A DNA stretch of 64,000 nt, taken from contig CAOKWI010000012.1 in the NCBI GenBank assembly GCA_948473115.1, positions 1 to 64,000 of the forward strand, in the 5' to 3' direction. The translations under genes were made by a program, and so were the position numbers. This DNA comes from an uncultured Lachnospiraceae bacterium. Its GTDB lineage: Bacteria > Bacillota > Clostridia > Lachnospirales > Lachnospiraceae. Below are positions 2,724 to 53,422 of the stretch, piece by piece (position 1 is the first letter of the stretch; each line of letters starts with the position of its first letter). The notes beneath the pieces were generated by a model that saw only the letters and a list, made by a program, of their open reading frames with translations, was not told the origin of the DNA and did not search any database.

Positions 2724-4703
2724 ATGCGTCAGGAGAGGTGTTGCATCCTCCTGAACAGCGCAGAAATGGGGATCGAAATGAGATTTACTTCGGTAGTGTT
2801 TGGAAACGGGCGGGGAAAATACAGCATGGGAAGCAATTTCCTCTATTGTTTCAGGGAGATGTGGGGTTGGAATAAGGCGTTTTTTTTCTGCTGCCTGCTG
2901 GGATTCCTTCCCGCCATGGCTTATGCCTTCCTGGGGGTCTATATGCCTTCCCGGGTGGTGGCGGATCTGGAGGCCGGAGCGGCGCTGGGGGCGCTGTTGT
3001 TTCACCTGGGTCTGCTCAGCCTTGGGGTGTGGGTCTGCGGAGCGGCAGACGGCATGATTCAGGTATACAAGGAGACCATGATCTGGAGTTTTAAGGGATA
3101 TCTTCAGGGAAAGTACATCCACAAGGTCATGGATATCGATTATGACAGGCTTGAGAGCCAGGAGCGGCAGACGGTTCTTGGCAATGTGGCGGATACCGTG
3201 GGAAAAGGAAAAAACCTGTATGGGCTTATCTTTTTGAGTTATGCGATGGAGGATCTGGGGCTGGTGTTGATATATGGTACACTGCTCTGTTTTGCCAACC
3301 CCCTTCTCACCGCGGCGGTGCTTGTGACGGTGTTCGTGGATCTGAGACTTCTGGCCTTTGCCAGGAAAAAGCACGCACAGTATTACGAGAAGCTGAGCCT
3401 GCTGTCCAGGAAAATGACTTATATCAACACACAATCCCAGAACGCGGCCGCGGGGAAGGATATCCGCGTCTATAAGCTGCTGGACTGGTTCCTGAGAAAG
3501 TATGACGAATCGCTCCAGGCCATGAACAGGACCCACGGGAAGATCATGCGATGGTACACCAACCGCCTGTATGTGGCGGCGGTGCTGGCTTTTTTCCGCA
3601 ATATATTCGTCTATGCCTGGCTGCTGTGGCAGCTGGTCGGAGGGCAGATCGGGGCGTCGGATTTCGTGTTTTATGTGGGGCTGGTGAACGGTCTGGCGAA
3701 CAGCTTTGAGCAGACCATGCGGCAGGTCATGAATCTCAGCAGCACCAGCCTGACTCTCAGCTACATTCGGGAGTTCCTGGGCTGGGAGGATGACTGGAAG
3801 AGGGGGCAGGGCATCGGTGAGGCAGCGCTTCGGGAACTGCTGGAGAAGCCTGTGGAGCTGGAATTGAGGGATCTGTCCTTCTCCTATCCGGGCAGCGAGA
3901 AACCTGTCCTGTCCCATGTGAGCCTGACGGTAAAACCGGGGGAGAAGCTGGCGCTTCTGGGGTTGAACGGGGCGGGGAAGACTACCCTGGTCAAGCTGAT
4001 CTGCGGCTTCTATCATCCCACAGAGGGACAGATCCTGATCAATGGAATCCCCCAGGAAAGTTTCAGCAGAGAGGAATATGAGCAGGTCATGTCCGTGCTG
4101 TTTCAGGACTGTACCTTCCTGCCGGTGACGCTGGATGAGAATCTGACCGCGGAGAAGCCGGGGGAGGAGGATCGGGCGCTTCTGGACCGCTCCCTGGATT
4201 ATTCCGGTTTCCGGGAGAGGTATGACAGGCTTCCCGCCGGGGGAAAGACAAAATTGATCAAGGAAGTCAACGAGGGTGCGATGGATTTCTCCGGCGGGGA
4301 GAAGCAGAAAATCCTCTTTGCCAGAGCCATGTATAAGCAGGCGCCGCTGCTGATCCTGGACGAACCCACTGCGGCGCTGGATCCCATTGCGGAGAACCGG
4401 CTTTATATGAATTACGGAGCCGCCACCAGCGGGGCTACATCGATCTATATTTCCCACCGGCTTTCCAGCACAAGGTTCTGTGACAGGATCGTGCTGCTGG
4501 AGAACGGACGCTTTGTGGAGGAGGGAACGCACGAGGAGCTGCTGCAGGGGAACACGCGGTACGCGGAGTTATTCCACATGCAGAGCAGATATTACCGGGA
4601 GGAGCAGGAAAGGGACGAGGACAGACGCAGACAGGCGGAAGCCTTCGGAGAGGGGGCGCAGCATCCCTTCGGAGAAAGCCTGGAAGGAGGGAGTGCGGAA
4701 TGA
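2724..4703 (+). CDS. ABC transporter ATP-binding/permease protein (half-transporter)
   Basis: TM domain, Walker A GLNGAGKTT, signature DFSGGEKQK, Walker B LLILDEPTAALDP. Start may be the internal ATG at 2826. Confidence 0.92.
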   Translation: MRQERCCILLNSAEMGIEMRFTSVVFGNGRGKYSMGSNFLYCFREMWGWNKAFFFCCLLGFLPAMAYAFLGVYMPSRVVADLEAGAALGALLFHLGLLSLGVWVCGAADGMIQVYKETMIWSFKGYLQGKYIHKVMDIDYDRLESQERQTVLGNVADTVGKGKNLYGLIFLSYAMEDLGLVLIYGTLLCFANPLLTAAVLVTVFVDLRLLAFARKKHAQYYEKLSLLSRKMTYINTQSQNAAAGKDIRVYKLLDWFLRKYDESLQAMNRTHGKIMRWYTNRLYVAAVLAFFRNIFVYAWLLWQLVGGQIGASDFVFYVGLVNGLANSFEQTMRQVMNLSSTSLTLSYIREFLGWEDDWKRGQGIGEAALRELLEKPVELELRDLSFSYPGSEKPVLSHVSLTVKPGEKLALLGLNGAGKTTLVKLICGFYHPTEGQILINGIPQESFSREEYEQVMSVLFQDCTFLPVTLDENLTAEKPGEEDRALLDRSLDYSGFRERYDRLPAGGKTKLIKEVNEGAMDFSGGEKQKILFARAMYKQAPLLILDEPTAALDPIAENRLYMNYGAATSGATSIYISHRLSSTRFCDRIVLLENGRFVEEGTHEELLQGNTRYAELFHMQSRYYREEQERDEDRRRQAEAFGEGAQHPFGESLEGGSAE

Positions 4704-6529
4704 ATAAAAAGGATATAAAGAATCAGCTGCGTCTGATCCGGGACTGCTGTAAGCTGGGAGAGACGAAAACAGTAGTCTGCATGGTGGTGACCTGTGTCCT
4801 GGAGGGCATCCGTCCCTACATTTCCCTGCTGTTGATGGGAAGGCTGCTGGATATGGTCTACGGAGGAGCCGGATATCAGGAAATGATAAGGATGGCTTTG
4901 GCCGCATTCGGATTTGTGGGGATTTCCTCCCTGGTGGAGGCCGTCATGCATAAGCGGTATAATGGAAGGCTGATGGGGATGTATGAGACCCAGTCCTATA
5001 TGATAGACCGGAAATGCCTGTCCATGGACTATGAATACCTGGAGGATAAGGAGGTCCATGACATGGTCTACAGGGTGGACCGGGGCGAGGGCGGCGGCTT
5101 CGGCATGCTGGGCAATCTGCTTTCCGACTGGGAGTTTGTAATCCGGGGAGCTGTTTCCATCGCGGCGGCCGTGGCGGTGATCTTCCCGCTGTTTGCGGAT
5201 GCCACGAGTGTCAGGGAGGGCTTTATAACCTCATGGCTGGCTTCCCTGCTGCTGTTCGCGGTGATCGGGGCTATTACGGTGCTGAACTATATCCTGGATG
5301 TGAAATTTGGGGAGGCTGTGTGGGAGTATCGGGAAAGGGCGTCAAAGCACAATAATGTGCTTTCCTGCTATATGGGAATCCTGGCTTCCTATGAGAGACA
5401 GAAGGATCTTCGCATTTTCAGGCAGCGGCGGATGATAGAGGAAGAGGCGGACCGGGAGCTTGAAAAGCTGAACGGTTATCACAGAGGCGAGGCGGGGGTC
5501 AACTTTAAGCGTGCCACGGTTAAAAACACGGTTGCGGCGTTGTCCGGCCTGCTGGTGTATGTCTTTGCAGGTGTCCGGGCGTATCTGGGGCTGATCTCTA
5601 TCGGCAGCGTTGTGACCTATGCCTCCAGCATCGTACAGATGACCAGTTCCATGGCGCTGTTCATGCAGCGGATGGCAAGACTTAAGAACGACAGCCGCTA
5701 TGTGAACGATTATGCCGGGTTCATGGATTTGGAGAAAAGAAAGTACGAGGGCTGTATTCCCCTGGAGAAGCGCAGGGACAATAAGTTTTCCGTGGAATTT
5801 GAGCATGTTTCCTTTCAATATCCCGGCTCTGACGAGTATGTGATAAAGGATCTGAACCTGAGCTTCGTCATCGGGGAGCGGATGGCCATTGTGGGAAAGA
5901 ACGGTTCCGGCAAGACTACCTTTATCAAGCTGCTGTGCAGGCTGTACGATGTGACGGAGGGGTGTATCAAGGTCAATGGCGTGGATATCCGCAAATATGA
6001 CTACAACGAGTACTGCCGTCTCTTTGGGGCAGTATTCCAGGATTTCCAGATGTTCGCCTTCCCCCTGGGGGAGAACATTGCCTGTGGGGAAGAAGTGGAT
6101 CACGGGAGGGCGCTGGATGCCCTGAACCGGGCCGGGCTGGAGGAGCGCCTGGGAAGTCTTCCGAAGAAGCTGGATACTTTTGTGGGAAAGGAATTTACAG
6201 ACGAAGGCGTTACCTTTTCCGGCGGGGAGAAGCAGAAGATGGCCATTGCCAGAGCCATTTACAAGGATGCCCCCTTTGTGATCATGGATGAGCCCACAGC
6301 GGCCCTGGACCCTGTGTCGGAATGTGATGTTTTTACAGGTTTTGACCGGATGGTGGGGAACAAGACCGCCATCTATATCTCCCACAGGCTGGCATCCTGC
6401 CGGTTCTGCCAGGACATCATTGTCTTTGACAAAGGACAGGTGGTGCAGCGGGGCAGCCACCGGGAGCTGGAAGCACAGGACGGCCTGTACCGGGAGCTCT
6501 GGGAGGCACAGGCCAGGTATTATCAATAG
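4700..6529 (+). CDS. ABC transporter ATP-binding/permease protein (half-transporter)
   Basis: Walker A GKNGSGKTT, TFSGGEKQK, FVIMDEPTAALDP; overlaps the previous gene by 4 nt. Confidence 0.92.
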   Translation: MNKKDIKNQLRLIRDCCKLGETKTVVCMVVTCVLEGIRPYISLLLMGRLLDMVYGGAGYQEMIRMALAAFGFVGISSLVEAVMHKRYNGRLMGMYETQSYMIDRKCLSMDYEYLEDKEVHDMVYRVDRGEGGGFGMLGNLLSDWEFVIRGAVSIAAAVAVIFPLFADATSVREGFITSWLASLLLFAVIGAITVLNYILDVKFGEAVWEYRERASKHNNVLSCYMGILASYERQKDLRIFRQRRMIEEEADRELEKLNGYHRGEAGVNFKRATVKNTVAALSGLLVYVFAGVRAYLGLISIGSVVTYASSIVQMTSSMALFMQRMARLKNDSRYVNDYAGFMDLEKRKYEGCIPLEKRRDNKFSVEFEHVSFQYPGSDEYVIKDLNLSFVIGERMAIVGKNGSGKTTFIKLLCRLYDVTEGCIKVNGVDIRKYDYNEYCRLFGAVFQDFQMFAFPLGENIACGEEVDHGRALDALNRAGLEERLGSLPKKLDTFVGKEFTDEGVTFSGGEKQKMAIARAIYKDAPFVIMDEPTAALDPVSECDVFTGFDRMVGNKTAIYISHRLASCRFCQDIIVFDKGQVVQRGSHRELEAQDGLYRELWEAQARYYQ

Positions 6530-28559: not shown

Positions 28560-28822
28560 CGTAACAGTTCAGTCTTGATAGTGCCAGGCGGTTTGTTTTT
28601 TGGCAAGGGGGGACGGCGCAGAAAGTACCCCTGCCTCTCCTGCTCCTGTATCCTGAAAGCTTATATATATCACATAGCAAAATTAAGGCAACCATTCAAA
28701 GCCAACTGGAAAAGTATTGTGAGGTTCAATCAATACATATTACGAAAAGTCAGGCGGAGACGTGCTGTCCTGCCCTAAGCGGACTTTGGAGGGCGGTCTT
28801 AGCGGAGATGAAATCCACTGCT
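28560..28822. mobile_element. Degraded GTAAC-terminated element (left part only)
   Basis: GTAACAGTTCAGTCTTGATAGTGCCAGGCGGTTTG left terminus and a ~78-bp block matching 53070-53148; right terminus absent. Confidence 0.55.
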
Positions 28823-28854
28823 TTGGAGTCAAAAGGGAAATCCTCCGTGAAATA

Positions 28855-28925
28855 GATCATCTCATTATATTTTTACACAGCGTCACAGATGGCGCTGTGG
28901 TGCATAACGGTTTATTAGTTTATCC
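28855..28925. repeat. Short dispersed repeat, copy 1
   Basis: ATAGATCATCTCATTATATTTTTACA...GGTGCATAACGGTTTATTAGTTTA; near copy at 30490-30561. Confidence 0.6.
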
Positions 28926-29066
28926 AGAACATTATGCAAGGGGTATTGACTTGCACATTTTTGCTTGATATGATAAAAATATATTATAAAGTTTTGGTTT
29001 TTATGTTAATGGTAATGCAGAATTGAAGAATTTCTTAATAAAAATTTTGAAGAGAGTAAGACTATT

Positions 29067-29739: not shown

Positions 29740-30494
29740 CTTTTCCCCTCTGGCAGATTTTCGTTTTCCCTCCCGATTGTCTTTTTTGCGGTCCTGGGAA
29801 ATGCGGATGAATGGGGAGAAATAGAAAGCTTCGCAAAAAGGAAGGAGATGTGGCTGCGTAAATACCTGGAACTTTCATCCGGCATCCCGACAGATGATAC
29901 CTACCGTATCGTGATGGGGAACATTGGCACGGAACATTTCTACCAGGCTGCAGCGGGGCTGCTGATCCAGACAATAGAGGGAATCGTGCTGCTGTCCGGG
30001 AAGGAAAGCAGGGGATCCAAAAGGAAGCCGGGGGGCAGGGGGAGGCAAAGGCACTGCAGACCCTGAATGTGTATTCAAATGACTATGGGATATGTCTGGC
30101 ACAGAAATTCATTGATGAGAGGACAAACGAGATACCGGCGGCGTAGGAACTGTTGGGGCTTATGAACCTGCGGGATATGATCGTGACGGCGGATGCCATG
30201 AACTGCCAGAAGGATACTGTTTCTGCAATTGTATCGGGGAAAGGGGACTATGTGCTTGCCCTGAAAGGGAACCAGGGGCTGTTCCATGAAGAAGTCAGGG
30301 ACTACTTTGAAGGAGGCGTACTGGAAAACCTGAAAGGGAAAGAAGGATGCTACAAAAAGACAGTGGAGCCGGAATACGGGGGGAGTGCAGTCCGGGAATA
30401 CTACATCACGGAGGACACGGACTGGTACAGTGAACGGGGGAAGTGGAAAAACTCAGGAGTTTCGGGATGGTGGGTAAGATTCTGGAGAAGATAA
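29740..30494 (+). pseudogene. ISAs1-family transposase remnant
   Basis: MWLRKYLELSSGIPTDDTYRIVMGNI, KFIDERTNEIPA(stop)ELLGLMNLRDMIVTADAMNCQKDTVSAIVSGKGDYVLALKGNQ; in-frame TAG at 30144-30146, upstream frameshift, no normal C-terminus. Confidence 0.85.
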
Positions 30495-30561
30495 ATCATC
30501 TCTTTATATTTTTATACGGCACCAGAAATGGTGTCGCGGTGCATATCGGTTTATTAGTTTA
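30490..30561. repeat. Short dispersed repeat, copy 2
   Basis: ATAAATCATCTCTTTATATTTTTATACG...GGTGCATATCGGTTTATTAGTTTA. Confidence 0.6.
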
Positions 30562-30564
30562 ACC

Positions 30565-30704
30565 GTAACAGTTCAGCCATGCGGCACCGCGAAGTCAAAA
30601 TTGCGTTCCTATGCAATTTTGCGAGACTTGCAGGCGCCAAAATGAGTTGAAAACTCATTTTGTGTGCATCATCGTAACAGTTTGGCCGAAGGCTGAACTG
30701 TTAC
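30565..30704. mobile_element. 140-bp GTAAC-terminated MITE with 8-bp TSD
   Basis: GTAACAGTTCAGCC ... GGCTGAACTGTTAC flanked by perfect GTTTAACC repeats (30557-30564, 30705-30712). Confidence 0.88.
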
Positions 30705-37526: not shown

Positions 37527-37691
37527 GTAACAGTTCAGCCAGCCGATGTGAGCAGTCGAAAATCGTGCTCGCACGAATTTTCGGCTGATTATATCGGCTG
37601 AGGGAACGCTGTCTTATGAGCAAAGGTAGCTGCGAAGCAGCGGAAAGCACCGCAGGTGCGGCTTTGTGAATGGCGAGGGCTGAACTGTTAC
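37527..37691. mobile_element. 165-bp GTAAC-terminated MITE with 8-bp TSD
   Basis: GTAACAGTTCAGCC ... GGCTGAACTGTTAC flanked by perfect AAATACAT repeats (37519-37526, 37692-37699). Confidence 0.9.
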
Positions 37692-52397: not shown

Positions 52398-52682
52398 TTG
52401 TAAACTCCTGAGTGTTATTGCTGTTTATGCGAAAGCAGGCTAAATCATTTTAACACATTTTTATTTCCGTTTCAGATTTATTTTATTTTTTTCTTAGAAA
52501 TTGAACACACTTTGGACACATTTACCGTTTATTATGTATCTTAGATAGTTGATGAACTCACTATCTCCCCCCTCATAAGAAAATAGCGAAAGGCCTCGGC
52601 GCAAGCCGGGGTCCTTTCGCGTCCAGGGGGACGTGCGGGAGAAGGGACGGCACGTCCCCGCTGTCCCCTTCACTGATAGGTT

Positions 52683-53338
52683 GTAACAGTTCAGCCCTGA
52701 TCGTGCCAGGCGGCTTGGGTTTGTGGAGGAAGGGACGGCGCGGGGGAGACAGGGGTACTTTCTGCGACGGCTCGATGGGCGTTCCGAGGAGCCTTATGCA
52801 CGGCAAGGTTCTCAAAGAGGGGTGTTTACACACCCTCTTGGGCTCACCTCGCCGAAGTCTCCTCTCCACATCTCACTCACGCCGCAGAAAGTACCCCTGT
52901 CTCCCCCGCGCCTATATCCGGCAAGGGAAAATGCACCCGCGCGTGTTTCTGGCAAGCCCCAATATCCCCGCACCTGTTTTCTATAAATATAAAATATTTT
53001 GATCTGGCTTTTTTCATATTATATAATTGCGAGTTTCTTTGATGTTTGGCTCTATATAATTTCAAATTGCGGAAAGTCAGGCGGTGACGTGCTGTCCTGT
53101 CCTGGGCGGACTTTGGGGGGCGGTCTTAGCGGAGATGAAATCCACTGCCTACGCAGACTATGGCGCGAAGACGCAATTCGCGCCATAGGGACGGTTGGTT
53201 TTTAACCGTCCCGTAGTCGTAGTTGGCAGTTAGTTCAGATCCGCGTTGCCCCGTCCGCCCAGGACAGGACAGCATGGCGCCGCCGTCCCCGTCCCCTTAG
53301 CAAAAGAACGCCTGGTACGATCTGGACTGAACTGTTAC
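52683..53338. mobile_element. 656-bp non-coding GTAAC-terminated element with giant hairpin
   Basis: ~31-bp imperfect TIRs (GTAACAGTTCAGCCCTGATCGTGCCAGGCGG / RC GTAACAGTTCAGTCCAGATCGTACCAGGCG); flanks GATAGGTT / GATAGATT; no plausible transposase ORF. Confidence 0.82.
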
Positions 53339-53422
53339 GATAGATTTCCGGCGAGAGAAAAAAAGGGTGGTAGAAATCCATAAATTAGAGTAAAATAGAT
53401 TAGGTATGGATTACGGAAAGGC

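Follow-up and report, generated by a model that had tools for sequence, protein, structure and literature searches.

A probable IS66-type MITE of a Lachnospiraceae genome carrying two outward-facing structured units

A 656-bp element (52683–53338), flanked by genes for a LytTR response regulator and a Mur ligase, lies in the window, i.e. the whole 64,000-nucleotide stretch of Lachnospiraceae DNA analysed here. It raises two questions: what kind of element is this, and what are the hairpins inside it? The ends answer the first. The left terminal inverted repeat (TIR; GTAACAGTTCAGCCCTGATCGTGCCAGGCGGCTTG, 52683–52717, plus strand) is complementary over 30 nt (52683–52712) to the right TIR (53309–53338, minus strand), with 90% of the positions paired. 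The terminal sequence starts with GTAACAGTTCAG. The element is flanked by an 8-bp target duplication whose left copy GATAGGTT (52675–52682) and right copy GATAGATT (53339–53346) agree in seven of eight bases. In the sister copies L009 and L085 all eight bases agree, and imperfect target duplications are also found at several other large copies of the same genome. Four ORFs of 68–99 amino acids overlap the element and none of them has a match in Pfam; this search of the internal ORFs revealed no transposase gene. The element is a non-autonomous MITE with TIRs, 8-bp target duplications and no coding capacity. Two further hairpins, of the GCGAAAGG..CCTTTCGC and GGGACG..CGTCCC types, are located directly outside the element (52587–52668) and are not part of it.

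The interior is dominated by two hairpin systems. The sequence-only reading had described a perfect 30-bp inverted repeat (52737–52766/52883–52912) with a loop of 116 nt, which is exact, and the TIRs and two smaller hairpins that it listed are all present where it placed them. The 30-bp repeat can be lengthened to 33 nt with 97% complementarity. The resulting outer arm (52737–52769) and inner arm (52880–52912) form the stem of the left structured unit (52733–52916, minus strand). A second large inverted repeat (53080–53111/53253–53284, 91%), absent from that reading, encloses the two small hairpins. It forms the outer stem P1 of the right structured unit (53076–53288, plus strand), which contains a conserved core (53108–53260, plus strand) and has a GTCC end. 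The first tip hairpin CTATGGCGCGAA...TTCGCGCCATAG (53158–53188, plus strand) has its arms at 53158–53169 and 53177–53188; its last base is also the first G of the second tip hairpin GGGACGGTT...AACCGTCCC (53188–53212, plus strand). In sister copies a different hairpin, GGAACTGTGAAA...TTTCACAGTTCC, takes the place of the second one, which typical units lack, so the tip is modular. The units are separated by an AT-rich spacer (52917–53075) that varies in length and sequence among the copies. For the whole element the minimum free energy is −352 kcal/mol, compared with −231 ± 7.7 kcal/mol for shuffled sequences (z = −15.6).

The element belongs to a large population. In the draft genome from which the window derives (4.44 Mb, 143 contigs), searches returned about 40 large related copies; such copy counts are search outputs and do not come from downloaded whole genomes, and copies inside one genome are not independent of each other. 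The 35-bp terminal sequence yields 77 ends in this draft and none in a reversed-pattern control, and the shorter exact 13-mer GTAACAGTTCAGC occurs 189 times with no occurrence in the controls. Paired ends delimit elements between 140 and 656 bp long, and the 8-bp duplications of most of them are perfect. Many copies are located at contig ends, as expected for a repeat that breaks assemblies. In the genus, an exact 14-base end is present in 57 of 138 genomes.

Several relatives are found in the window itself. Two small MITEs with GTAACAGTTCAGCC ends have perfect 8-bp duplications, GTTTAACC for the one at 30565–30704 and AAATACAT for the one at 37527–37691. The former breaks up one copy (30491–30570) of an unrelated 80-bp direct repeat. 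The other copy of this repeat (28852–28931, 80% identical) is a paralogue without insertion and thus approximates the empty target. At 28561–28824 the large structured element is present in truncated form: the left end is retained, and the right unit stops after GAAATCCACTGC. Near the contig start, positions 150–184 on the minus strand correspond to the end of another large copy. A 1.6-kb TIR pair (G000:C22) was considered as an autonomous element and rejected: the 429-aa ORF that it encloses is of the ATPase type and no transposase, and the left end of the pair is part of a small 141-bp MITE.

The source of mobility is suggested by a relative in the same genus. Genome G006 contains, at C1:930568–932384, a complete PF03050 (IS66) element of 1817 bp with the ends GTAACTATTCAGCACC/GTAACTATTCAGAACC and the duplication ATTTTTAT. 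Its GTAACTATTCAG ends are comparable to the GTAACAGTTCAG ends of the 656-bp element, and both begin with GTAA. ISDge4, a member of the ISBst12 group that was observed to transpose, has the ends GTGACTACTCAGCA/GTAACTGCTCAGCA and generates an 8-bp repeat (PMC12898284). The 656-bp element thus resembles the ISBst12 group of IS66 in its GTAAC..TTCAG ends, its 8-bp target duplication and the presence of a complete relative in the genus. It differs in having no transposase gene and in carrying two structured units, none of which occurs in the examined IS66 loci of the genus. PF03050 is present in 42 of the 138 genus genomes. As a search of the draft genome of the window, which is about 87% complete and interrupted at repeats, gave no PF03050 protein, we can only infer the source enzyme. 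Probably an IS66-type transposase moved the window copy; acting in trans, an enzyme of the ISBst12 type would recognise the GTAACAGTTCAG ends and produce the 8-bp duplications.

The structured units define a family of their own. A structure-annotated alignment of 28 diverse copies shows a stem with the conserved internal loops GGA/GGA and GNA/GNA and a conserved unpaired AUCC. Changes on both sides were found in 27 of 38 base pairs. The covariation score of the unit is 0.365, compared with 0.164 for shuffled alignments (reached in 0 of 500); with slid pairing partners it is at most 0.113, a control that favours the drawn structure since this was drawn on the same 28 sequences. A covariance model built from these copies matches the right arm of the window at 53108–53260 with 87.3 bits (E = 4.2e-24, E-values of this model being rough). 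Outside the core, P1 comprises about 22 bp in most loci (length judged by eye) and is nearly perfectly self-complementary. The sequence of P1 is unrelated between many genomes, and P1 ends in a conserved junction (ACAG-like on the 5' side, CGTCC-like on the 3' side). As judged from the aligned copies, the fold of the unit is maintained while the stem sequences change. The sequence-only reading had named disrupted arms with no compensatory change as one sign against it; arms of other copies do show compensatory changes, and its suspicion of an RNA or DNA hairpin under selection was justified. The cargo of the 656-bp element, read in this way, is a set of fold-conserved units and not a dead gene.

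The base pairs of the core show a wobble asymmetry. Read on the unit strand, G-U pairs exceed A-C pairs by 80:13, and by 38:13 if one fixed pair is left out. This asymmetry is not observed in P1 (48:56). The wobble asymmetry and the conserved mismatched loops speak for a strand-specific nucleic acid, either RNA or DNA. Neither the 656-bp element nor eight homologous loci match an Rfam family at or near the gathering score, and a literature search for this motif found no report. A likeness to retrons, based on TTAGC ahead of the first stem, was considered and dropped because the site varies (TTAAT, TTTGT).

The family is patchy and multi-copy. A scan of the sequence collection, which demanded a conserved 20-mer, returned 72 stretches, of which a few match by chance. 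They come from Acetatifactor muris and from assemblies that carry the labels Acetatifactor, Blautia, Dorea and Lachnospiraceae. The neighbouring genes of these loci differ, and no neighbour is conserved. Divergent units were obtained only from model searches with strict filters. These gave hits in 34 of the 397 Lachnospiraceae genomes sampled (32 of 334 genera), with many copies each, and in 16 of 138 genomes of the genus. Of 391 genomes of the class, 3 had hits, and all three are Lachnospiraceae. The named isolate A. muris DSM 23669 carries many copies. At one of its loci (L270, minus strand, 4893–5508), three tandem units with a spacing of about 247 bp are followed by a reversed one. At another (L202), a tiny 32-bp MITE GTAACAGTTCAGACAGGGCACTGAACTGTTAC with the 8-bp duplication CAAGATTA lies about 0.7 kb upstream of the unit. 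In A. muris (G062) the GTAAC end is nearly absent although the structured units multiply there, and target duplications were looked for at its elements and not found. The free structured unit is therefore not explicable by IS66.

Close pairs of units on opposite strands, within a few hundred bases of each other, are always arranged minus-then-plus and thus face outward; no inward-facing close pair was seen among the pairs found. Outward pairs are present in A. muris, a Blautia-labelled genome, L211, L219, G572, G901 and G769, and with longer spacers in G273 and G835. Longer relatives with a transposase, for which the sequence-only reading had proposed a search, were not found between units. 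By eye, no transposase was recognised in the long spacers of G273, G770, G602 and G835, and L362 and L363 contain ordinary-looking genes. Hidden autonomous elements in the long spacers were rejected on this basis. The two arms in the window have the same minus-then-plus order as the pairs elsewhere. Read on the minus strand, the left arm has a similar GTCC end and a CTCNTCGGAACG motif, and its match to the unit model is weak (11.4 bits). In 14 left arms compensatory changes occur in 12 of 56 pairs, a count reached in none of 500 shuffles. The left arm probably arose as a paralogue of the right unit and has since diverged; for this the 11.4-bit match is suggestive only. The 656-bp element as a whole is likely an ISBst12-type IS66 MITE that carries two outward-facing structured units from a patchy, multi-copy Lachnospiraceae family, each about 200 nt long and with the left unit diverged. 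The sequence-only reading had recognised neither the many MITEs of this type in the genome nor the make-up of the element from two outward-facing units.

The MITE part of this reading has good support; how the units themselves act and spread can be addressed with less certainty. One possible account regards the unit as a structured non-coding RNA or an RNA domain of untranslated regions whose fold is selected as RNA and whose dispersal by mobile elements is incidental. The covariation, the mismatched internal loops GGA/GGA and GNA/GNA and the excess of G-U over A-C in the core agree with such an RNA. The genomic context does not: no sigma-70 promoter enrichment was detected upstream of 59 aligned motif sites (8.94, compared with 8.88 for shuffled and 9.25 for downstream sequences), the orientation of the units is unbiased relative to the coding strand (22 of 45), and no neighbouring gene is conserved. 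The lack of an Rfam match and of a wobble asymmetry in P1 also speaks against an RNA. Relative to GC skew there is a weak orientation bias (35:19, p = 0.04, for copies that are not independent). On balance, we slightly prefer recognition of a hairpin at the DNA level to an RNA gene, and an RNA role is nearly as likely. The unit would then act as a strand-specific hairpin signal in a REPIN-like layout, recognised as single-stranded or cruciform DNA by a putative protein, and the MITE would be a secondary vehicle of the unit pair.

Template switching could have produced the compensatory changes without any selected function of the fold. Hairpins with multi-base compensatory changes are made and maintained by template switching (PMC8794818), in which case the covariation would be a by-product of quasipalindrome correction in DNA. 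Symmetric mismatches in P1 fit such a process, as do perfect locus-specific palindromes that reach into host sequence (60 of 60 positions in L266, 67 of 76 in L218). The 60-bp palindrome of L266 runs from the unit (3963–4133) towards a neighbouring DHFR-like gene and looks like a candidate recent extension by template switching. It appears to include the ribosome-binding region of that gene. The same process would, however, erase the mismatched loops, and GGA/GGA, GNA/GNA and AUCC/UUAG as well as the ACAG/CGTCC ends are kept across genera. Furthermore, it leaves unexplained that the units have spread, in many copies, to 32 genera and that their pairs have a fixed orientation. As the entire explanation it is unlikely; template switching may have contributed part of the covariation.

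REP sequences offer a more distant comparison. REPs are dispersed intergenic hairpins with a tag at the hairpin foot (PMC3733652), and in REPINs such hairpins occur as inverted pairs (PMC3116915, PMC3733652). The units share the dispersed intergenic position, the inverted pairing and a foot tag, and their CGTC(C) end resembles that of CGTC-tagged REPs, so they could be regarded as giant REPs mobilised by a Y1 transposase of the RAYT or IS200 type. Known REPs (GTAG- or CGTC-tagged) measure 20–40 bp and have short stems, the CGTC-tagged ones being palindromes with a stem of 8–9 bp and a loop of 4–5 nt, whereas the unit comprises about 200 nt with a far larger stem and loop and with conserved internal loops. 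Y1_Tnp is absent from all genus genomes with at least two units, including that of the window, yet it is present in 49 of the 138 genomes, and none of 30 Y1 loci contains a unit. A Y1 or RAYT enzyme was thus rejected as the mobiliser; this origin is highly improbable, and membership of the unit in the REPIN/RAYT system is not claimed.

The weakest account, a decayed insertion sequence with hairpins as accidental leftovers, would suit a non-coding element with TIRs and a target duplication, but as a full explanation it is refuted and scarcely conceivable in view of the folding (z = −15.6, which together with the covariation bears out the earlier remark that a decayed IS would not keep so much structure), the covariation across copies and genera, the lack of a transposase remnant in the ORFs (Pfam) and the approximately 40 similar copies in the genome.

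BOX, ERIC and NEMIS are modular, palindromic, intergenic MITE-like repeats that are thought to be mobilised in trans. The unit-bearing element is likewise modular, palindromic, intergenic and thought to be mobilised in trans. It is larger, contains two outward-facing units and has a core that recurs, on changing carriers, in at least 32 genera.

Tentatively, the unit may mark a so far undescribed class of mobile hairpin elements or mobile structured RNAs in Lachnospiraceae, which a putative enzyme would recognise on one strand and of which a pair would have been captured here by an IS66-type MITE. Such a class would consist of two outward units, each with a conserved core, end tags and a locus-specific stem of about 22 bp. 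The few structured mobile repeats of bacteria are joined here by a dispersed, fold-conserved family that is absent from Rfam and present in 34 of 397 sampled genomes of Lachnospiraceae, and whose units travel as cargo of IS66-type MITEs. Since conserved mismatched loops stand side by side with perfect, locus-specific palindromes at the same loci, the shares of selection and template switching in the covariation of DNA hairpins become testable. Experiments are possible because the named isolate A. muris DSM 23669 carries many units.
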